Shown in pieces: positions 47,033-56,720 of a DNA stretch of 64,000 nt. The notes beneath the pieces were generated by a model, which was not told where the DNA came from, made no database searches, and saw only the letters and a program-made list of their open reading frames with translations. Both the position numbers and the translations under genes were made by a program. This stretch comes from Halorhabdus tiamatea SARL4B. Its GTDB lineage: Archaea > Halobacteriota > Halobacteria > Halobacteriales > Haloarculaceae. The stretch covers positions 620,001-684,000 of the forward strand of contig NC_021921.1 of NCBI RefSeq assembly GCF_000470655.1. The letters are read 5' to 3'. The first letter of the stretch is position 1. Each line of letters opens with the position of its first letter.

Positions 47033-47704
47033 ATGACGCAAGACCTCCAGGCGCTCCTGCTCGGCGGGACGGCGTTCCCGTTCCACGATATCGAAGAACT
47101 CGGCCCGCACATCGAGGCCGCGCTTTCGGCCGAAGGCATCGACGCCGAGATCACGACCGATCGCGAAGAACTCGCGGTGCTGCCCGACAGCGAATACGAC
47201 GTCTGCATCGACTACACGACCGACAGCGAGATGACCGACGCCCAGCTGTCGGGGCTACTCGAGTTCGTCGAGCGCGGCGGTGGCTATGCGGGCGTCCACG
47301 GCGCGGCGGCGCTCGAGACTACAGTTCCCTCGGACCCCGACGATGTCGTCGGGGAGCGTGAGGAGCCAAACCCCGAACTCGAGGAACTCATCGGCGGGCG
47401 ATTTATTCGCCATCCCGATCCAGCCGCCTTCGACGTCCGGATCGTCGATTCCCACCACCCGATCACGATCAACCGCGCGGACTTCCAGGCCTACGATGAA
47501 CCCTACGAGGTCGTCACCGACGACGTCCACGTCCTCGCGCGGATGGACCACCCAGACCTGGGGGACATGCCGGTCGCCTGGGTGAAACCCTACGGCGATG
47601 GTCGGTCCTTCTATACCGCGCTCGGACACTTTCGGTCGGCTTTTGAAGGAGAGGCGCGGGCGCTGCTCGGGGCCGGCGTGCGGTGGGCTGGCGGTCGGGC
47701 GTGA
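47033..47704 (+). CDS. ThuA-like domain protein
   Basis: The 223-residue protein has the ThuA/class I glutamine-amidotransferase-like fold: LQALLLGGTAFPFHDIEELG, ELAVLPDSEYDVCIDYT, FVERGGGYAGVHGAAALETT, DSHHPITINRADFQAYDEPY, and the C-terminal VAWVKPYGDGRSFYTALGHF. ThuA-like proteins are linked to sugar metabolism, but no enzyme activity is assigned here. The last 375 bases (from codon 101 on) are partly repeated at 55742-56026, where the copy is truncated and fused to another gene. This is the intact member. Confidence 0.85.
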   Translation: MTQDLQALLLGGTAFPFHDIEELGPHIEAALSAEGIDAEITTDREELAVLPDSEYDVCIDYTTDSEMTDAQLSGLLEFVERGGGYAGVHGAAALETTVPSDPDDVVGEREEPNPELEELIGGRFIRHPDPAAFDVRIVDSHHPITINRADFQAYDEPYEVVTDDVHVLARMDHPDLGDMPVAWVKPYGDGRSFYTALGHFRSAFEGEARALLGAGVRWAGGRA

Positions 47705-47784
47705 ATCCTAAAGTGTGTCATAGAAACGTTCACAGCTGATTCACTGCGATGCAATCCAGTTCGTAAATGTTGAGATACACAGGG

Positions 47785-48348
47785 TTACGGAAGACAGTGC
47801 AAGATACAGCAGCTTTGTGCAGCACTGTTAGTCATCAGTACTTGAGTGTCATTCAATAGTCTATTTGGTGGCAATTCTCCATCACATTGTCGTTCGTGTT
47901 TCACCATCCAGTTTGAATCGATACCGTCTGTACCTAATTCCTCACCTTGGTAAACCGTGATACTCAATTCTGTATCCTCATCACACGGTGATTCTTCGGC
48001 CTTGAATGTCAGTAAATGGGGAAATCCTTCGCAGGAAATTCGGTATGGGCCATAATCTCTATTTTCTTCGACAGTCCCTATCTGTTTTCTACATACTTCC
48101 GTTCCTGCACGCGAAAACCCTACAATATGAACAGCGTGGAACGTATTCCATTGATCAGACTCACCAGTAGCGCTCATATATATAGTTATTTCTAGTTGAT
48201 AGCTGTCATCAGTATGCTCTTTCAACTCTGTGGCCCGGAATCCCAACTTACGCTTCCGTGGATAATCTCCTGGACATCCGCTGAGTAAACCCATTCCGCT
48301 AACAGCGAATGCTCCCAATATATTCCGGCGGGATATTTGCTTAGTCAT
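47785..48348 (-). CDS. Tat lipoprotein, partner of truncated protease module 3
   Basis: The 187-residue protein has a Tat motif (ISRRNILGAF) and lipobox LLSGC at Cys25. Its exported domain resembles the partners of the two other protease modules: AVHIVGFSRAGTEVCRKQIG and LLTFKAEESPCDEDTELSIT correspond to the same beta-rich domain in the 48.7-kb and 50.4-kb partners. It starts inside the stop region of the preceding fragment (8-base overlap ATGACTAA). Codon usage is visibly AT-richer than the chromosome around it. Function unknown; extracellular inhibitor/immunity partner is my hypothesis. Confidence 0.7.
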   Translation of the reverse strand: MTKQISRRNILGAFAVSGMGLLSGCPGDYPRKRKLGFRATELKEHTDDSYQLEITIYMSATGESDQWNTFHAVHIVGFSRAGTEVCRKQIGTVEENRDYGPYRISCEGFPHLLTFKAEESPCDEDTELSITVYQGEELGTDGIDSNWMVKHERQCDGELPPNRLLNDTQVLMTNSAAQSCCILHCLP

Positions 48349-48646
48349 CGATTGATGGAACGTCTTTGAGATCTACCGTAGTCAACTCTTCAATACTATA
48401 TGCTAACCGTCTTCCCATCATCGCTGCACTATACCCATCTGTCATTATACTCCATTCTGGCTCGTCAAACCCAGATATGTATTCCGGCGTCTCGTCTTCT
48501 CCTCCACCGACGAGTTTGACACCAGCGATCGACCCATTGACACAGTCACTCCCGCTGTAACACTCGGCAATGTGCCCGTCGCCTTTGTCGTGGAGCCAGC
48601 CGATACTTAGAGCGTGCCCCAACTCGTGCATTACCTCGGATTGCAT
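48341..48646 (-). pseudogene. C-terminal fragment of the metallopeptidase domain (module 3)
   Basis: The 101-residue frame starts just before the zinc site (MQSEVMHELGHALSIGWLHD) and keeps HExxH at residues 7-11, the GGGEDETPE segment and the Met-turn WSIMTDGY, but lacks everything N-terminal to the active helix. Bases 48482-48631 are closely similar to 49257-49406 in the next module. It lies only 21 bases after the partner gene of module 2 and in the same frame, so the 5' part was probably lost by deletion. Most likely a remnant, although still open. Confidence 0.75.
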
Positions 48647-48667
48647 GACGTGGAAATGCTGATTTTC

Positions 48668-49123
48668 TCACTCACATCCCATGTCTACTATTGTCCAATT
48701 CGATTTATTATCGTTTTCACCTTGATACTGAAGGATTTCAATAACAGTATCATCTTCACATATATTTTCACCCACATTGAAAGTGATACTGTCTGGCCAG
48801 CTTTCACACCGTAATATCGAAGTGAACTCTTGACTTTCAGTCAACGTTCCGAGAGACTGCGAACACAATTTTGTCTGGTCCTCTGTTCGTCCAACGAGAG
48901 AAACCCCTGTGAATTGAGCCCAACTCTCCGCGCCTTGAAGACTGACCGATATTTCTACCTCGAATCTGTGCCCTCCATTTGAATATGAGTGATTGATACG
49001 ATTGAACCCGAGATATCTATCACATGTCCCGGTATCATCAACCGATATACAACCGGACATATTCAAAAGGCCCAGTGTCGTCCCTGTCACGATAAATCTC
49101 CGTCTCGATATCCCGTCAGTCAT
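48668..49123 (-). CDS. Tat lipoprotein, partner of truncated protease module 2
   Basis: The 151-residue protein has a Tat signal (GISRRRFIVTGTTLG) with lipobox MSGC. The mature part is beta-rich with four further Cys and shares the block SLVGRTEDQTKLCSQSLGTL / ITFNVGENICEDDTVIEILQ with the other partners. Start and protease stop overlap as ATGACTGA (8 bases). Low GC relative to the genome. Anchored outside the membrane, it is placed to meet a secreted protease. Confidence 0.75.
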   Translation of the reverse strand: MTDGISRRRFIVTGTTLGLLNMSGCISVDDTGTCDRYLGFNRINHSYSNGGHRFEVEISVSLQGAESWAQFTGVSLVGRTEDQTKLCSQSLGTLTESQEFTSILRCESWPDSITFNVGENICEDDTVIEILQYQGENDNKSNWTIVDMGCE

Positions 49124-50276
49124 CTGTTGATGGGATATCATCTGTATCGATTGAAATTAATTCTTCCAAGCTATAGACCAGTCGATTGTTGCTGTACTCA
49201 TTTGCTCGATATCCTCGTGTCATTATACTCCACCGAATATCGCCAATTCCAATCTCTTCCGGCGTCTCGTCTTCTCCTCCACCGACGAGTTTGACGCCAG
49301 CGATCGACCCTTTGACACAGTCACTCCCGCTGTAACACTCGGCGATATGTCCGTCACCTTTGTCGTCGAGCCAACCGATAGATAGCGCATGTCCAAGTTC
49401 ATGCATGAGTAATTTTTTCGCCTCGCTGAATGATGAAGTCTCGTTATCGAAAACGACCGTCCCGTATGGAACACGGCCCGTCGTTTCCAGCGCGGCCACC
49501 TGGCCAGGCGAGCCAGTATGTCCTTCTAACCCAATTACGTTGCCAGGGATGAATTTATCGTGAGGGAGATATTCCGGCTCGTCAGACCCATATTCGTTAG
49601 CGTAGAGCAGGTGTAGCTTGCTATCATCGTCGTGATATTCGTTCTCGATTACCGAAAGTTCCTTCACGTTCAAACTATCCGGTGTGACGTAGATCGGAAC
49701 TGGAACCGTTATTGTACTCCCTGGGAATAGCAGTTTCCGTTCATGGCCTTTGACGAGGTCTTGAAGGTCACTCTTTTCGATCGAGTCGCTATTGCTCTCA
49801 TCGAACGTCACATTGATTCCATACAGGGCTAGATTCTTTTTTGTCGAAGAGAGTACCGTTTCGCCGCCACGGCGAATTTGGGACGGGTTGTGGCCTGTTA
49901 GCCAATCGACTTCGATTTCGAGCGACGTTTTCTCGTCCAATTGTTCCGGATTAGGGTCAGTTGGATCCGAATCCCAGTGTAGCTCTCCGAGATGAACGTT
50001 CGAATGCCGCTTTACGGAAGAGCCGGGAGAATTGTCGAGATACGCTCCGGGGTCCTCGGGGTGAACTACGTGCACACCAACCTGCTCGTCGACGCGTTCG
50101 TCAGCACCGCTAACGCCATTGCCTGACTGCAAATTCTCTCGGTAGAGGATCACGTTGTCCGAATACCCGACACCGTGAACACCGATCCAGCCGTCCCAGT
50201 AGCCGTCGCCGTCCGTATCTAGGTTCAGCGGATCGATCTGTTTCGACACCTTCTCATCTACAGATACGGTTGTCAT
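49116..50276 (-). CDS. orphan C-terminal module of the secreted metallopeptidase (module 2)
   Basis: The 386-residue protein corresponds to the last third of the giant protein at 50.9-55.5 kb. Residues 21-103 (TDGDGYWDGW to GELHWDS) are almost identical to residues 1175-1257 of the giant protein; DNA identity is perfect over 168 bases. Beyond that the peptidase domains diverge, keeping HELGH at 292-296, Cys314/Cys320 and a Met-turn WSIMTRGY at 349-356. There is no signal peptide, so without recombination it would stay in the cell. The ATG follows a relic of the parent frame (see below), so the start is uncertain. Confidence 0.75.
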   Translation of the reverse strand: MTTVSVDEKVSKQIDPLNLDTDGDGYWDGWIGVHGVGYSDNVILYRENLQSGNGVSGADERVDEQVGVHVVHPEDPGAYLDNSPGSSVKRHSNVHLGELHWDSDPTDPNPEQLDEKTSLEIEVDWLTGHNPSQIRRGGETVLSSTKKNLALYGINVTFDESNSDSIEKSDLQDLVKGHERKLLFPGSTITVPVPIYVTPDSLNVKELSVIENEYHDDDSKLHLLYANEYGSDEPEYLPHDKFIPGNVIGLEGHTGSPGQVAALETTGRVPYGTVVFDNETSSFSEAKKLLMHELGHALSIGWLDDKGDGHIAECYSGSDCVKGSIAGVKLVGGGEDETPEEIGIGDIRWSIMTRGYRANEYSNNRLVYSLEELISIDTDDIPSTDD

Positions 50277-50335
50277 CTGAAGTTCGGGAACCGGGTAATA
50301 TGCCGGAGTTCCTGACCGTCGGTCAGGCAGTCGTC
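50276..50335 (-). pseudogene. out-of-frame relic of the parent Asp-rich repeat upstream of module 2
   Basis: On the minus strand the 20 codons before the module-2 start read DDCLTDGQELRHITRFPNFR and stop. DDxxLTDGQELxxIT matches DDDGLTDGQELKGIT at residues 1126-1140 of the giant protein. The relic is shifted by one frame from the module-2 ATG, so the cassette was once longer and has been shortened. A TATATATG element directly precedes it and might provide a promoter. Confidence 0.6.
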
Positions 50336-50415
50336 ATATATAGATTCAGGCCAGTCCCTTCCGAGAGGTCTCCTCTTTTGATGCCCATGTATGGTTCTTA
50401 AATATGAGACGGAAA

Positions 50416-50880
50416 TCAGCACTCTTTGTGAATTTGAACAAATGGTTCGTAGCTTCCGTTTGCCCGTTGAAGGCCTTTTATCCAGTATTCCGCATCGGGA
50501 TTCTCTTCTTCGAGGGTTCCAATCTCGAGACGAATACGCTCAGGAATATTGTTAAGTTGGATAGTTCTTGTTTCATTCCAATTTCCAGAGAACGTCCCCA
50601 GATGAGTCCGTCGAAAAACGGTTCCGTTTATGTCTTCGTATTCGATTACAACGTTATGGAACGTTGCTACGGAGTGGCCAGAGCTAACAACCTCGATCTC
50701 TAGTTCGACACCTCCATCCTGGAGAGCGGTTTCTTCATACACCCAAGCCTCCAGCTCCCACGATGCTTGGCTGAGTCCTATCGGACACATAGAGACGGAA
50801 GATAGTAACGTCAATCCCCCTATTAACAGGATGATGATCACCACTAGCACGAGGAGGATCTTCTTTACCATGTTACTCAT
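50416..50880 (-). CDS. membrane-anchored partner of the full-length protease (module 1)
   Basis: The 154-residue protein starts MSNMVKKILLVLVVIIILLI, a single N-terminal signal-anchor, and continues with an extracytoplasmic beta-rich domain: NVVIEYEDINGTVFRRTHLG and NNIPERIRLEIGTLEEENPD align with the blocks of the two Tat-lipoprotein partners. It lacks a Tat motif, unlike them. The start overlaps the protease stop by 8 bases (ATGAGTAA). Together the three partners form one divergent family of unknown fold and function. Confidence 0.7.
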   Translation of the reverse strand: MSNMVKKILLVLVVIIILLIGGLTLLSSVSMCPIGLSQASWELEAWVYEETALQDGGVELEIEVVSSGHSVATFHNVVIEYEDINGTVFRRTHLGTFSGNWNETRTIQLNNIPERIRLEIGTLEEENPDAEYWIKGLQRANGSYEPFVQIHKEC

Positions 50881-53800
50881 TCTGGCTATCGATATTCTCG
50901 AATTCGATTGTAAATAGCTCTTCAATGCTGAAAGCAATATAATCTCCGTTCATCGGTCGATTGGTGACTGGCCGATTCCAGCCACTGCTCATCACGCTCC
51001 ACTCATACTGGTTTGGCCCAGAAAAGCCGACATCTTCTTTCGTCTGATCATCATCGTTCCCACTGTAGACTTCGTCAGGTACGACGCCAGTTCCATAGCG
51101 TGAGCTGTCGTCGTTTCTACCGGCACCGATCAGGTGGCCGATTTCGTGAACGATCGTCTTTTGATACGCAATGGGCTTTGGGTCGTTTTGATGGTCCTTC
51201 GTGAACACGAGCGTGCCGAATCCAAACCCGTGAACGTGGCCCAGTACCCAGTCCGATCCGTCCGAGGAAGCAACGCCGTCGACACCGTCCCAGCTTGGCA
51301 GGACGTTGTAATGATTGTCAGCACCTTTTGTCGTAATGAACATGTACGCACGCGATTCGTTATCGTGGTGCTCTTGCTCGATCCATTTTGCTTCTGGGTA
51401 GGTCGTTGGTGGAGTAAACTCGTCTTCGGTCTCTACGCAGACTTCGGGGCCGTGTTTTTGATAGCATTTTGTCTTTTTCTCGGTCAAATCACTATCATTG
51501 AGGGGGTCCCCGTCCAAATGCAAATTTGCGTTTATGCCGTATAGTGCATAGTTCTGTTCCACGCCACTATGTGCTTGGAGGGCTCTGGAATCAGCGTTGG
51601 CGTATCGATCCACCTCAACATCGAGTGATGGATCCGGTTTCACAGAGTCGTCATTCGGGTCTGCGGTCTGACTCGGATCGAAGCTATCCCAGTGTAGCTC
51701 TCCGAGATGAACGTTCGAATGCCGCTTTACGGAAGAGCCGGGAGAATTGTCGAGATACGCTCCGGGGTCCTCGGGGTGAACTACGTGCACACCAACCTGC
51801 TCGTCGACGCGTTCGTCAGCACCGCTAACGCCATTGCCTGACTGCAAATTCTCCCGGTAGAGGATGACGTTATCCGAATAGTCGACATCGTAGACGCCGA
51901 TCCAGCCGTCCCAGTAGCCGTCGCCGTCTGTGTCTGGATTCAGTGGAACAGTCGGTTCTTCTAGTATGTTCGCCTCTCTAACGTTGAAATATGTGAACGA
52001 TGCTATACCACCGGTAGTCCCTTGGGTGGCTTTCGTGATCCCTTTCAGTTCTTGTCCATCGGTCAACCCATCGTCGTCAAAGTCGGGATCCCATGGGTCC
52101 GTTCCCTCCTCCAATTCACGAGTGTTTGACAGCCAGGTGTCCGTCCGCTTGGTTCCATCCAGAGCAGTGAACGTGATCCGATTGAACAGTTCGCGACTAC
52201 GCGAAGCGTAGTTCCAGTCAAGCGAGTCGTCAGTGACGAAATCAAAATCACTCGTCGCATCGTTCAACCCGCTTGGCCCGACCGTAATTTCTTCTGTCGC
52301 TAATTGTTCTGGAATGCCGAGAGCGTCTGCACCGAATCGGAATCGAAAAACCTCTCCATCTGCTTCGATCAGTTCGATCATTTCGGCTTGCTCTGCAGTA
52401 ATCCCGTACGTCACGGGCTCGCGCGGATCCGTATGCGTGTATTCCTTCTCCTCGGTATCATTCAGTCCGTCGCCGTCCGTATCTTTCAGCATGGGGTTGG
52501 ACGTGACGGTGATATTGGCGTCCGGATTCTCATCGACACTGCCAGCCCACCGGTAGGGCTGGCCGCTCTCGTTGATCACCGAGATGTTCCAGCCGTCGGC
52601 CTTCGAGTTGTTCTCCAGAGAGACTTCCTCGTGATCTTCGAGGCCATCACCGTCCGAATCGGCGCGCGTCGGATTGGATCGCAGTTCGAAGTACGAGACG
52701 ATGTACTCGTGCTCGAGGTCGTTGACGACGAAGTCGATCGGGTACTCTCGGTATTCCTTGGCCTCTTCGCCGTCCGTGAGCTCGTCGCCATCAGTGTGCT
52801 TGTCGGTTGCGTTGGTCGGAAGCCGGCGGAGGTCCGAGCCAGTGTGACCAATCGGCAGTCCGTTTTCTTCGAGGACGTCCGGCAGTCCGTCGCCGTCGGT
52901 GTCTTTCGGTTCGACCTCTTCGGCGACACGCGAGAAGACGTTCGGCAAGTCCGAGGCGTCCTCGACGTAATTGTACGTCCCATTGGTGATCGATGCGATA
53001 TCCGAGAGTTTGTTTCCATCCGCTCCCCCGAACCCGATCGTGTGGATCGTGATATTCCGGTCGGCGGCTGTCCGTGCCTGAGCCCGGCCGCCCGAGCCCT
53101 GGCCGTCAGTCAATAGGATCGCAACCTTTGCGCGAGAGTTGTTGCTCGCACTCGCGAAGTGCTGGTTTGCCCGCGCGACACCGCTGCCGATGTCCGTCCC
53201 GCCACTCGCGTCCAGACTCTCGATCGTGACGTTGACCGCGCCGAAGTCCGTCGTCAACTCCTGAGCGACGTGGGCAGTGTGATCGAAGTCCACCACGCCC
53301 GCCCGGTCGCCCGGAATGAGCGCGCCGACGAACTCTTTGGCTGCTTGCTTCCGGAATTCCTGAGGATCGTTTCCGCCCATCGAGCCCGAGGAGTCGATGA
53401 TGAACTGGACGTCCACGGACTGGATCGAATCGTCCCCGCTCGATCCGTCTGACCCGTTCGACGGCACCTCGGCGGTGACATCATCTGCCCAGTTCGAAAT
53501 CGAGAAGACGGCGAACGTCGAGAAGTGTTCGGTCTGGGCTGTCACCGTGTTGTTCTCGGCGTCGATCGTCGAGTTGATCGGGACGTAGAGTTGCTTCTCG
53601 GGGTCGTAGGTGACGACTGCCAGATCTGACTCGTTGCTCGCAGCGGGAAGAGAATCGTCGTATGAGATGGTGACGTTCGCCGACTCGAACTCGCGCGTGG
53701 ATTCGATCTCGACGATCTCCGAGACGCTTATGTTCGCAACGCGATCGCCTTCGGCGAAGCGTTCAGTATCCTCGCCAACAGTCACGCCACCAGCTACGTT

Positions 53801-55453
53801 CCCCTGACCAGTCAACTCGATGTCGACGCCCAGACTCTCGTTGCCTGTCGTCGTCGTGTAGGTCTCGTTGCCATCCTCTACGCCGTCATCGTCGGTATCG
53901 GGATCGAGCGGGTCCGTGTTGAACGGGTCGGTCGGTTCGACGCCATCGTCGAGGCCGTCGTCGTCAGTGTCGGCCTGCCACGGATCCGTCCCGTTAGCGA
54001 GTTCCTGGGGATCGGTCAGCCCGTCACCGTCGATGTCGGCATACTGTGGCGAAGTCTCCGCTTCGTACTCCTCTGCGTTGGTTAACCCGTCTCCGTCGAG
54101 GTCTTCCGCACCATCGGATGTACCGTCATCGTCTGTGTCGGCGTCGAGTGGGTCCGTCCCGATCACGAACTCCTCGAAGCCATCAGGTAGATCGTCACCG
54201 TCTGTATCAGCTTCGAGTGGATCCGTCCCGAGTTCCCGTTCTCGGATCGTCGACAACCCATCACCGTCGAAGTCCTCGTGGCCGTCGATCGTGCCGTTGT
54301 CGGCCTCGTTCACCTCGGTCGACGGTGCGTCACTGTCAGGATCCAGCGGATCAGTGCCCGTCACATTCTCCTCGTAGGTATCGGGCAGGCCATCACCGTC
54401 CAGGCGAAGCACCACCGTGCTCGTCTGGCTCTGCCCGGATGAGACGCCACCGTTGCCGTTGTTGCCCTTCTTTTTGCCCTTCTGCTTGGATTTCTGCTTG
54501 CCGTTGTTCGACTGTTGGTTGTCAGTACTCTCGACGACCGCAATTTCGATCGTATTCACACGCTCGGTGAGATTGATCGTTTTCACGAACGTGCCGTTGG
54601 CGTAGCCACGGCGAAGCGGAAGGTCGACTGTCCGATCATCGTTGATCGTCGCAGTGACGTTCACCGCGTCCAATCCGGTGGGATCCGAAACGTGCCCCAC
54701 AAGCGTATAGCCAGCTCGTTCGCTCCCGTTACGGATCGGATCCGTCCGCCGTGTCAACGACACCTCCGGGCCGACCTCGCCATCGATCATTCGCAAGGCA
54801 GTGTGAGCCTGGTTGACCGCCGAGCCGTACGTTCGGACGGCCCGTGCCGTTGTACGAATCGACTGCGCTCCCGATTGCTCGCCAGCGCGATCGCGGATCC
54901 GCTCGGCGCGGGCGAGTTGCCACCGAGCATTGTCGATGTGCGCCTCAGCACTATGTTTCATTCCCGAGCCGAGGTCCGCCTCAGTCGCCGTGAATGCAGA
55001 TTCAGCATCACGGATGACTTGTCTGGAAGACTGGTTATCCGCCCGCGTCACCAACTCGACGATCTGGTCGAGTCGCTTGCTCTGATTCGTCCCGGCGAAG
55101 TCAGTCAGCGCGCGGAGTACTTCCGCATCGCGAATGAACGCGTGCTGGTCGTCGACGCGTATCGGATCCTGGTAATACGAAAAGGAATCGTTCAGTCGCG
55201 AGCGAGCCCGTTCCTTAGCCGACTCGAGTTGGTTCGACGAGGCCGAGAAGTTCTCGATTCGCTCCATGGCCTGGGCTTTCAGTATCACCGGCGGCCCGTC
55301 CATGGATACTTCAGAAACCGGATCAGCCGCCGCTGTATTCCCCGCGGTTTCGGAAACCGTCTCGGCAGACACCGTTCCCGCCGGCAACATCGAGACAATC
55401 ATAAGAACCGATGCGATCACCGCGAACAATCTCCGCCGCCCACTTGCGGACAT
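50873..55453 (-). CDS. giant secreted surface protein: Asp-rich calcium-type repeats, vWA domain, C-terminal metallopeptidase (module 1)
   Basis: The 1526-residue protein has a Sec signal peptide (LFAVIASVLMIVSMLPAGTV, cleavage near AETVSET at about 30), a helical region to about 225, a Lys/Gln/Asn/Gly-rich spacer (316-340), then thrombospondin type-3-like Asp-rich repeats (about 350-530, 850-1010 and 1115-1180). A vWA domain (about 678-845) has an intact MIDAS (DSSGS 687-691, Thr and Asp downstream). The C-terminal peptidase has HEIGH at 1436-1440 and a Met-turn SVMSSGW (Met1488), as in metzincins; the third zinc ligand is not obvious. A TATA box centred 27 bases before the ATG predicts a leaderless mRNA. 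Overlaps its partner gene by 8 bases. Confidence 0.88.
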   Translation of the reverse strand: MSASGRRRLFAVIASVLMIVSMLPAGTVSAETVSETAGNTAAADPVSEVSMDGPPVILKAQAMERIENFSASSNQLESAKERARSRLNDSFSYYQDPIRVDDQHAFIRDAEVLRALTDFAGTNQSKRLDQIVELVTRADNQSSRQVIRDAESAFTATEADLGSGMKHSAEAHIDNARWQLARAERIRDRAGEQSGAQSIRTTARAVRTYGSAVNQAHTALRMIDGEVGPEVSLTRRTDPIRNGSERAGYTLVGHVSDPTGLDAVNVTATINDDRTVDLPLRRGYANGTFVKTINLTERVNTIEIAVVESTDNQQSNNGKQKSKQKGKKKGNNGNGGVSSGQSQTSTVVLRLDGDGLPDTYEENVTGTDPLDPDSDAPSTEVNEADNGTIDGHEDFDGDGLSTIRERELGTDPLEADTDGDDLPDGFEEFVIGTDPLDADTDDDGTSDGAEDLDGDGLTNAEEYEAETSPQYADIDGDGLTDPQELANGTDPWQADTDDDGLDDGVEPTDPFNTDPLDPDTDDDGVEDGNETYTTTTGNESLGVDIELTGQGNVAGGVTVGEDTERFAEGDRVANISVSEIVEIESTREFESANVTISYDDSLPAASNESDLAVVTYDPEKQLYVPINSTIDAENNTVTAQTEHFSTFAVFSISNWADDVTAEVPSNGSDGSSGDDSIQSVDVQFIIDSSGSMGGNDPQEFRKQAAKEFVGALIPGDRAGVVDFDHTAHVAQELTTDFGAVNVTIESLDASGGTDIGSGVARANQHFASASNNSRAKVAILLTDGQGSGGRAQARTAADRNITIHTIGFGGADGNKLSDIASITNGTYNYVEDASDLPNVFSRVAEEVEPKDTDGDGLPDVLEENGLPIGHTGSDLRRLPTNATDKHTDGDELTDGEEAKEYREYPIDFVVNDLEHEYIVSYFELRSNPTRADSDGDGLEDHEEVSLENNSKADGWNISVINESGQPYRWAGSVDENPDANITVTSNPMLKDTDGDGLNDTEEKEYTHTDPREPVTYGITAEQAEMIELIEADGEVFRFRFGADALGIPEQLATEEITVGPSGLNDATSDFDFVTDDSLDWNYASRSRELFNRITFTALDGTKRTDTWLSNTRELEEGTDPWDPDFDDDGLTDGQELKGITKATQGTTGGIASFTYFNVREANILEEPTVPLNPDTDGDGYWDGWIGVYDVDYSDNVILYRENLQSGNGVSGADERVDEQVGVHVVHPEDPGAYLDNSPGSSVKRHSNVHLGELHWDSFDPSQTADPNDDSVKPDPSLDVEVDRYANADSRALQAHSGVEQNYALYGINANLHLDGDPLNDSDLTEKKTKCYQKHGPEVCVETEDEFTPPTTYPEAKWIEQEHHDNESRAYMFITTKGADNHYNVLPSWDGVDGVASSDGSDWVLGHVHGFGFGTLVFTKDHQNDPKPIAYQKTIVHEIGHLIGAGRNDDSSRYGTGVVPDEVYSGNDDDQTKEDVGFSGPNQYEWSVMSSGWNRPVTNRPMNGDYIAFSIEELFTIEFENIDSQNE
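51683..51931 (-). repeat. recombination-handle repeat in the giant protease gene (second copy at 49968-50216)
   Basis: This 249-base segment codes for residues 1175-1257. It matches 49968-50216 with about eleven differences, all in the 5' third of the coding strand; bases 51686-51853 and 49971-50138 are identical over 168 positions. Downstream, in the peptidase-coding part, the two genes are only distantly similar. Near-identity upstream of diverged ends is the signature of recombination between a parent gene and an orphan C-terminal cassette. Confidence 0.88.
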
Positions 55454-55484: not shown

Positions 55485-55630
55485 CGTTTCGGTAGTAAAC
55501 TACACCGATATAACAGGAGTGAATTTCAATTGAAATTGAGTAGATTGGTCGGTATTCAACGACACCCTCCGATCAAACCGCCTTCGCCGGGGACCAACCG
55601 TTTTTGCCCGTCCCGGTCGTCGCTCTCACT

Positions 55631-56023
55631 ATGCACAACGTGGACGCCGCAGGGCTCGGGATCGGCGACGATCACCCGCCCCGGATCATGGGCGTGCTCA
55701 ACGTGAGTCGTGAGTCGCCGTACGATCCCAGCGTCTTCGCCGACCCCGACAACATCGTCGGGGAGCGCAAGGAGCCAAGCCCCGAACTCGAGGAACTCAT
55801 CGGCGGGCGATTTATCCAGCATCCCGAGCCGGAGGTCTTCAACGTCCGCGTCCTCGCGCGGATGGACCACCCAGACCTGGGGGACATGCCGGTCGCCTGG
55901 GTGAAACCCTACGGCGATGGTCGGTCCTTCTATACCGCGCTCGGACACTTTCGGTCGGCTTTTGAAGGAGAGGCGCGGGCGCTGCTCGGGGCTGGTGTGC
56001 GGTGGGCTGGCGGTCGGGCGTGA
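55631..56023 (+). pseudogene. chimeric frame: 5' end of dihydropteroate synthase gene fused to ThuA-like 3' end
   Basis: The 130-residue frame starts MHNVDAAGLGIGDDHPPRIM with GVLNVSRESPYDPSVFADP, which I recognise as the N-terminus of haloarchaeal dihydropteroate synthase (FolP). After residue 39 it switches to the ThuA-like protein (IVGERKEPSPELEELIGGRF), lacks 30 codons present in the intact ThuA gene, and then matches its last 177 bases with two differences by eye. The junction lies in the shared bases GACCCCGAC. Neither parent fold is complete, so a functional product is unlikely although the frame is open. Confidence 0.8.
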
Positions 56024-56033
56024 ATCAATCAGT

Positions 56034-56720
56034 TCAGTACTCGAAGACGGTCACGCCGTCTTCAGTCCCCATGTGAACGGCGTCAGCGTAGCCGGGGAAG
56101 ATCCCGTGTTCGACCACGCTGGGGATCGTCGCGATCTCCGTCGCGAGGGCTTCGGGATCGTCAATCGCGCCAAAGTCGGCATCGAAGAGGAGATTCCCGT
56201 TGTCGGTGACGACCGGGCCGCTCTTGCGCTGTGCCCACCGGAGTTCGGGCTCGCCGCCCATCTCGCGGATCGCGTTGGCGACCGTCGTCCGGGCGTCGGG
56301 GAGGACTTCCACGGGAACCACAGTGTCCAGCACGTCGGTTTCCTTGGTCGGATCGGCGACGATCTGGAGGCTGTCGGTCGCACTGGCGACGATCTTCTCG
56401 CGGGCGTGGGCCGCGCCGCCGCCCTTGATCAGATCCGGGCCGGCGAACTGGTCCGCGCCGTCGATCGTGACGTCGATGTGGCCGTCGGTCTCGTCCAGCG
56501 TCGTGAGGTCGATCCCCTTCTCGATGGCGATCTCCCGGGCCTGAAAGGAGGTCGTCACGCCGACGATATCGAGCCCCTCCTCGACCCGATCGCCGAGGAT
56601 GCGGATGGCGTGCTCGGCTGTGGAACCGCTGCCGAGGCCGACGACGTCGCCGTCGGAGACGGCTTCGACCGCACTCTCGCTCGCCCGCCGCTTCGCCGCG
56701 TCGCGCGTTTGCTCGTCCAT
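56034..56720 (-). CDS. rpiA: ribose-5-phosphate isomerase A
   Basis: The 228-residue protein interconverts ribose 5-phosphate and ribulose 5-phosphate. It shows VVGLGSGSTAEHAIRILG, the catalytic region DVTIDGADQFAGPDLIKGGG (Asp and Lys), AREKIVASATDSLQIVADPT and the C-terminal FDADFGAIDDPEALATEIA. Full length for RpiA. Convergent with the chimeric ThuA copy (10 bases apart) and divergent from rpe, with which it shares a pathway. Confidence 0.95.
   Translation of the reverse strand: MDEQTRDAAKRRASESAVEAVSDGDVVGLGSGSTAEHAIRILGDRVEEGLDIVGVTTSFQAREIAIEKGIDLTTLDETDGHIDVTIDGADQFAGPDLIKGGGAAHAREKIVASATDSLQIVADPTKETDVLDTVVPVEVLPDARTTVANAIREMGGEPELRWAQRKSGPVVTDNGNLLFDADFGAIDDPEALATEIATIPSVVEHGIFPGYADAVHMGTEDGVTVFEY

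Follow-up and report, generated by a model that had tools for sequence, protein, structure and literature searches.

We found that a 130-codon open reading frame (55631-56023) in the window, that is, the whole 64,000-bp stretch of DNA analysed, begins with 39 codons from the start of folP and continues in the same frame with the middle and the end of thuA. This ORF is probably an unselected relic, left when an island carrying the 5′ end of a folP gene inserted at a palindrome in thuA and duplicated the 3′ half of thuA. In-frame illegitimate recombination between folP and thuA, the core of the original prediction, is supported; beyond that prediction, the fusion forms the edge of an 8-kb island, bears a captured putative folP promoter and has its joint in a strong palindrome. 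The features of the region are listed in Table 1. Throughout, G000 is the window's own genome, G005 and G006 are sister species, and G002 and G004 are relatives used for comparison.

Table 1. Features of the thuA-rpiA region, in positions of the window.
Feature	Position	Strand	Basis or remark
Intact thuA, 223 aa	47033..47704	+	Pfam ThuA
Palindrome CCCCGACGA-TG-TCGTCGGGG in intact thuA; homologous site of the fusion joint	47335..47354	+	
Dispersed haloarchaeal repeat of ~100 bp at the left island edge, ~5 bp after the duplicated thuA segment	47712..47809	.	
Rest of island: small lipoprotein-like ORFs (47785-48348, 48668-49141, 50416-50937)	within 47785..50937	-	
Rest of island: orphan HExxH tips (49116-50276) and remnants	within 47785..50937	-	
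Gene for a 1526-aa VWA/TSP3 surface protein with HExxH tip, divergent from the fusion; island start at the right edge	50873..55453	-	Pfam VWA, TSP3
Captured folP upstream region with conserved promoter-like block TCGCCGGGGACCAACCGTTTTTG	55557..55630	+	Alignments to own and sister folP
First 39 folP (dihydropteroate synthase) codons, MHNVDAAGLGIGDDHPPRIMGVLNVSRESPYDPSVFADP, ending in the shared GACCC-GA joint	55631..55749	+	Alignments
Middle of native thuA (bases 301-407); joint within the left arm of the palindrome, which starts here	55742..55848	+	
Seam of the 90-bp in-frame deletion (thuA bases 408-497, equal to 47440-47529 of the intact copy)	55842..55850	+	
3′ end of native thuA, adjoining rpiA; 98% identical to the end of intact thuA	55849..56026	+	
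rpiA, native convergent neighbour of thuA	56034..56720	-	17 bp from thuA in sister genomes

Both parents of the fusion can be identified in the same genome. When the ORF was searched against its own genome, bases 1-119 matched folP (C2:2398485-2398603, 92% identity), whilst bases 112-226 and 212-393 matched the intact thuA at 84% and 98%, respectively. The assignment of the first 39 codons to the N-terminus of FolP is therefore confirmed by direct alignment to the genome's own folP (92% over 55631-55749), and the same stretch is 95% identical to the folP of a sister species. With its flank the folP match spans 55557-55749 (177/193 bp identical) and begins 74 bp 5′ of the ATG. The own folP (C2:2397731-2398603) encodes a full-length DHPS that exceeds the NCBIfam DHPS cut-off (170.8 vs 162.6) and matches Pfam Pterin_bind. 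The fusion, with its 39 folP codons, lacks the whole pterin-binding barrel and gives no Pterin_bind match in Pfam. Its product scores as ThuA at residues 69-126, covering profile positions 149-209 of 209, and the full ThuA domain is not present.

The fusion is separated from the intact thuA, which lies on the plus strand, by an 8-kb island of minus-strand genes, and is followed by rpiA on the minus strand. In both G005 and G006 thuA is directly convergent with rpiA and no island is found between them; because the two genes are direct neighbours in both sister genomes, the island was inserted here. Two copies of the thuA 3′ half flank it (repeats D3/D5; repeat pair 47523-47707 and 55842-56026). 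The five larger island ORFs were compared with Pfam, where one matched VWA and TSP3 and four matched nothing. Neither the ORFs listed for the island nor these five included one recognisable as an integrase or a transposase, the Pfam scan covering the larger ORFs. An AlphaFold model of the island's orphan tip was uninformative (mean pLDDT 30.8).

The dispersed repeat at the left island edge is present in 10/39 genomes (own included) and in 9 plasmid records. It is mostly intergenic, occurs in many haloarchaea and is 70-84% identical. A comparison with Rfam gave no match at E<=1, and the features listed for three annotated plasmid records included no transposase.

At the folP/thuA joint thuA has GACCCCGAC, the own folP reads GACCCGGAG and the G005 folP GACCCGGAC, such that the shared bases are GACCC-GA. 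The junction sequence originally proposed, GACCCCGAC, is thus present in thuA, and the folP side shares GACCC-GA of it, not the full nine bases. Homology at both seams of the fusion is short rather than long, being GACCC-GA here and an imperfect ACGTnCG at the deletion. The joint sits in the left arm of the palindrome CCCCGACGA-TG-TCGTCGGGG, which is the sole palindrome with an arm >=9 and a loop <=2 in the 64-kb window and its strongest short-loop one. In G005 and G006 the palindrome at this site is perfect over 20 bp, and neither 16-kb stretch has a longer one. The palindrome sequence occurs once in the genome, and as single-stranded DNA the site folds better than shuffled sequences (z = -2.9 for the intact copy of G000, z = -2.2 for G005). 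Chance coincidence of the joint with one 20-bp site in 64,000 is unlikely, but the palindrome was sought after the joint was known, which counts against the explanation we prefer. The second joint lies just past the thuA stop codon (GAATC, 47707), ~5 bp before the dispersed repeat. A literature search on palindromes, template switching and gene fusion found nothing directly relevant.

Relative to the intact thuA and to the thuA of both sister species, the remnant lacks exactly 90 bp, in agreement with the 30-codon in-frame deletion originally described in a ThuA-like remainder. The deletion lies between ACGTCCG and ACGTGCG of native thuA. It had been placed between ACGTCC repeats; short repeats do flank it, but the second ACGTCC is peculiar to the intact copy, the native sequence being ACGTGCG. 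In the sister genes the sequence at this point is ACGTGCGCGTCC, and their CGCGTCC state has been retained in the fusion. We also considered a single mosaic joint, from an old to a young thuA, instead of a true deletion, and rejected it on this sister state to the right of the seam.

Over its last 175 bases the remnant differs from intact thuA at 2 positions, and a third difference falls on the deletion seam at 55848; the near-identical tail of the original prediction (177 bases, two positions) stands, if shorter by two bases. The tail is 1.1% diverged and the middle much more, a mismatch in age that counts against the explanation we prefer. Compared with both sisters, remnant and intact copy share 2 derived states in the middle (107 bp) and 10 in the tail (175 bp), and thuA was therefore duplicated within this lineage. 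The fusion alone has changed at 5 sites of the middle, each time nonsynonymously; 4 of these sites lie no more than 38 bp from the folP joint and the fifth beside the deletion. Its 2 specific changes in the tail are synonymous. Specific to the intact copy are 9 changes in the middle and 0 in the tail; 7 of the 9 cluster within 19 bp, and the higher divergence of the part preceding the tail stems partly from this cluster. The cluster (47407-47425, thuA bases 375-393) is specific to the intact thuA of this genome; across all loci compared, no template for it longer than 14 bp was found besides itself.

These data bear on a course in two steps, in which the thuA 3′ duplication and the island came first, the folP start was added later and the tail was homogenised by gene conversion. 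We regard this as a serious possibility, though short of probable. On the remnant branch the share of changes that postdate the duplication is 5/7 in the middle vs 2/12 in the tail (Fisher P = 0.045), and on the intact branch the corresponding events are 3/5 vs 0/10 (Fisher P = 0.022), whilst the total distance of the remnant lineage is uniform (7/107 in the middle, 12/175 in the tail, Fisher P = 1.0). Gene conversion in polyploid haloarchaea is, moreover, the subject of a reference whose title appears in PMC7776575. However, both tests are marginal, and a burst of mutation near the rearrangement joints fits the numbers as well: remnant-specific changes alone are 5/107 vs 2/175 (P = 0.11), the middle is bounded by two such joints, where local bursts could occur, and the intact copy has its own separate cluster. 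The recent conversion of the 3′ end that had been suggested is possible; the greater divergence of the preceding part was borne out, whilst the test of conversion itself was only marginal. A literature search on haloarchaeal illegitimate recombination with gene conversion yielded nothing directly relevant.

The folP side of the fusion includes the region upstream of the gene. The 50 bp 5′ of the ATG show 2 differences from the own folP and 2 from the sister species; the upstream match to the own folP starts at 55557 and that to G005 at 55575. Within it the block TCGCCGGGGACCAACCGTTTTTG is largely common to the folP upstream regions of the aligned relatives, and its position ~25-50 bp before the start codon suggests that it is the folP promoter, captured with the fusion.

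The own folP also has an island beside it, a decayed one containing the same surface gene; it separates folP from the ancestral neighbour DUF/trmJ, a position at which G005 has no island. G006 carries an island at the same folP-side place, with 97-99% protein identity to that of G000 over the shared genes, and in G002 a piece of the surface gene lies ~5 kb from folP. Accordingly, the folP start of the fusion was most likely carried along at the edge of an island of this folP-side kind. In the decayed G000 paralogue at folP (L006 3780-4826, 6004-6456) the start-codon region is joined directly to the VWA part. In G006 (L101, G006:C1:2714000-2733000) the island occupies the place of folP and of the first half of mptE, and the only folP-like match left in that genome is a distant one in an 842-aa open frame.

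Such an island could have been assembled within the genome, the folP-side copy having been transferred intrachromosomally to thuA and the own folP having changed later. We consider this unlikely. It would account for the surface-gene paralogue being in the same divergent position at both loci and for a short stretch before the promoter that is common to the two and missing in G005. The shared layout, with almost equal start-codon spacing (178 bp at the fusion and 176 bp at the own folP), and the short stretch also support the explanation we prefer. Between surface-gene leader and folP promoter, the 55 bp of one locus do not significantly resemble those of the other (90/1000 shuffles were as good), which counts against that explanation. 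Against an origin within the genome, the folP piece of the fusion is further from the own folP (9/119) than from G005 (6/119, all synonymous), with the latter two differing at 3/119. At bases 48, 96 and 117 the fusion retains the G004 base, whereas the own folP and G005 agree on another, and in the 119-bp folP piece 0 coding sites group the fusion with the own folP. Moreover, the surface gene is full length in the thuA-side island and mostly deleted at folP. Three synonymous sites only, these positions point to a donor folP outside the own/G005 pair, and since the donor appears to lie there, the island may well have come in from a close relative. No donor genome carrying the exact folP allele was found.

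The fused stretch across the joint was found in its own genome only, both among 59 genomes and in a 116-genome family set (own included in each). Some match was present in 44/59 and 91/116 genomes, with those of the other genomes ending at or near the joint from either side; 8 plasmid records gave a partial match and none covered 80% of the query. A fused gene conserved across species, which would have contradicted the prediction, was thus found neither in the 58 relatives nor in the 116-genome set.

A function of the fused ORF is unsupported by these data, and we infer that it has none. The thuA part has accumulated 5 nonsynonymous and 2 synonymous changes; the 5/5 nonsynonymous changes of its middle are as expected without selection. 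The folP part has 3 fusion-specific changes, all synonymous and 0 nonsynonymous, and differs from the thuA middle in this respect (0/3 vs 5/5, Fisher P = 0.018). Either these synonymous changes predate the fusion or the N-terminal piece is constrained; their pattern suggests an origin before the piece was separated from a functional folP. The 130 codons are free of stops and frameshifts, which counts against a relic. However, the chance of keeping frame through two events is 1 in 9 if each is random, and therefore selection is not needed. That the ORF is instead a young functional gene driven from the folP promoter, such as one for a small partner of the island surface protein, is very improbable: it would explain the retained promoter-like block, the open frame and the folP piece without specific nonsynonymous change, but the gene is present in a single genome, its product would be a 39-residue folP stub on a C-terminal ThuA part with 30 residues missing, and the changes in its thuA part are mainly nonsynonymous.

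Genomic islands can duplicate the 3′ end of their target gene, such that direct repeats flank the insert and one gene copy stays intact. The island described here resembles them in exactly these respects, and the thuA 3′ end might accordingly be read as the attachment site of a site-specific integrative element, the direct repeat being the 3′ end that it displaced. This is hardly credible, given that no integrase was recognised among the listed ORFs, that four of the five larger ORFs lack a Pfam match, that the displaced copy starts in folP sequence, a foreign 5′ gene fragment, rather than in a clean att core, and that the 3′ part of the intact copy, with its 10 derived tail sites in common with the remnant, is not a foreign allele.

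The closest parallel is with chimeric pseudogenes formed by illegitimate recombination or microhomology-mediated end joining. As in these, unrelated genes are joined in frame at a short shared sequence, a deletion has occurred between short repeats, the partners are truncated and the product is confined to a single genome; what sets the present case apart is its link with a palindrome and its place at the edge of a multi-gene island bearing the promoter of a flanking gene. According to the review PMC7776575, microhomology-mediated end joining involving Mre11-Rad50 is documented in Haloferax volcanii, which is without Ku homologues, making it a route open to haloarchaea. The short homologies at broken ends and the resulting deletions and rearrangements are alike; however, end joining alone leads to deletions, and the duplicated thuA half would need template switching or joining between sister copies.

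We therefore favour insertion of a folP-bearing island at the thuA palindrome, by template switching or microhomology end joining. A segment with the VWA/TSP3 gene divergent to folP would have reached the thuA-rpiA region by copying or by transfer; the folP locus of a close relative is its probable source. One end, at folP codon 39, would have joined native thuA within an arm of the GC-rich 20-bp palindrome via the GACCC-GA microhomology, and the other just beyond the stop codon of thuA. With the second joint downstream of the first, the thuA 3′ half was duplicated, which would have left the full thuA to the left of the island and a headless remnant against rpiA. The remnant would then, or simultaneously, have lost 90 bp between short repeats, and with both steps keeping the frame a 130-codon ORF would have arisen behind the folP promoter. 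A copying event seems most likely: a broken or stalled end at the thuA palindrome may have annealed to the island folP by a few bases, copied through the island (or the reverse) and rejoined thuA past its stop, duplicating the 3′ half in one event.

The island genes belong to a wider family. At least five G000 loci (47785-55453 of the window, and C2 893-896k, 1688-1695k, 1255-1265k and 2398-2404k) have VWA/TSP3 surface proteins with a conserved N-terminal region, HExxH tips, orphan tips and lipoprotein-like ORFs. By sequence this architecture appears polymorphic-toxin-like. In the loci of PMC3482391 and, for a Thermococcales Ig module, PMC8416519, as here, a large surface protein is conserved in its N-terminal region and varies more at its C-terminal tip, and arrays contain orphan tips together with small downstream proteins. 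However, the compared tips of the island are all of one HExxH family, and the likeness concerns the island genes and not the fusion. It is conceivable, if rather unlikely, that the surface-protein islands of the genus use the folP-DUF/trmJ gap as a home and spread from it by template switching seeded at palindromes, taking the folP promoter and start with them. Each landing site would then gain a promoter-driven fused ORF, and the same process could delete folP, as in G006.

In summary, the fusion is an ordinary kind of event with unusually complete evidence. It is a readable fossil, in which both parents, the empty sister site, both joints and a likely fragile palindrome can be identified. 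For annotation it serves as a warning, in that a 130-residue ORF labelled ThuA is probably not a gene. Moreover, it helps to show how gene islands enter haloarchaeal chromosomes without an integrase, and if the link to the palindrome is general it would provide a testable rule for the landing sites of such islands.
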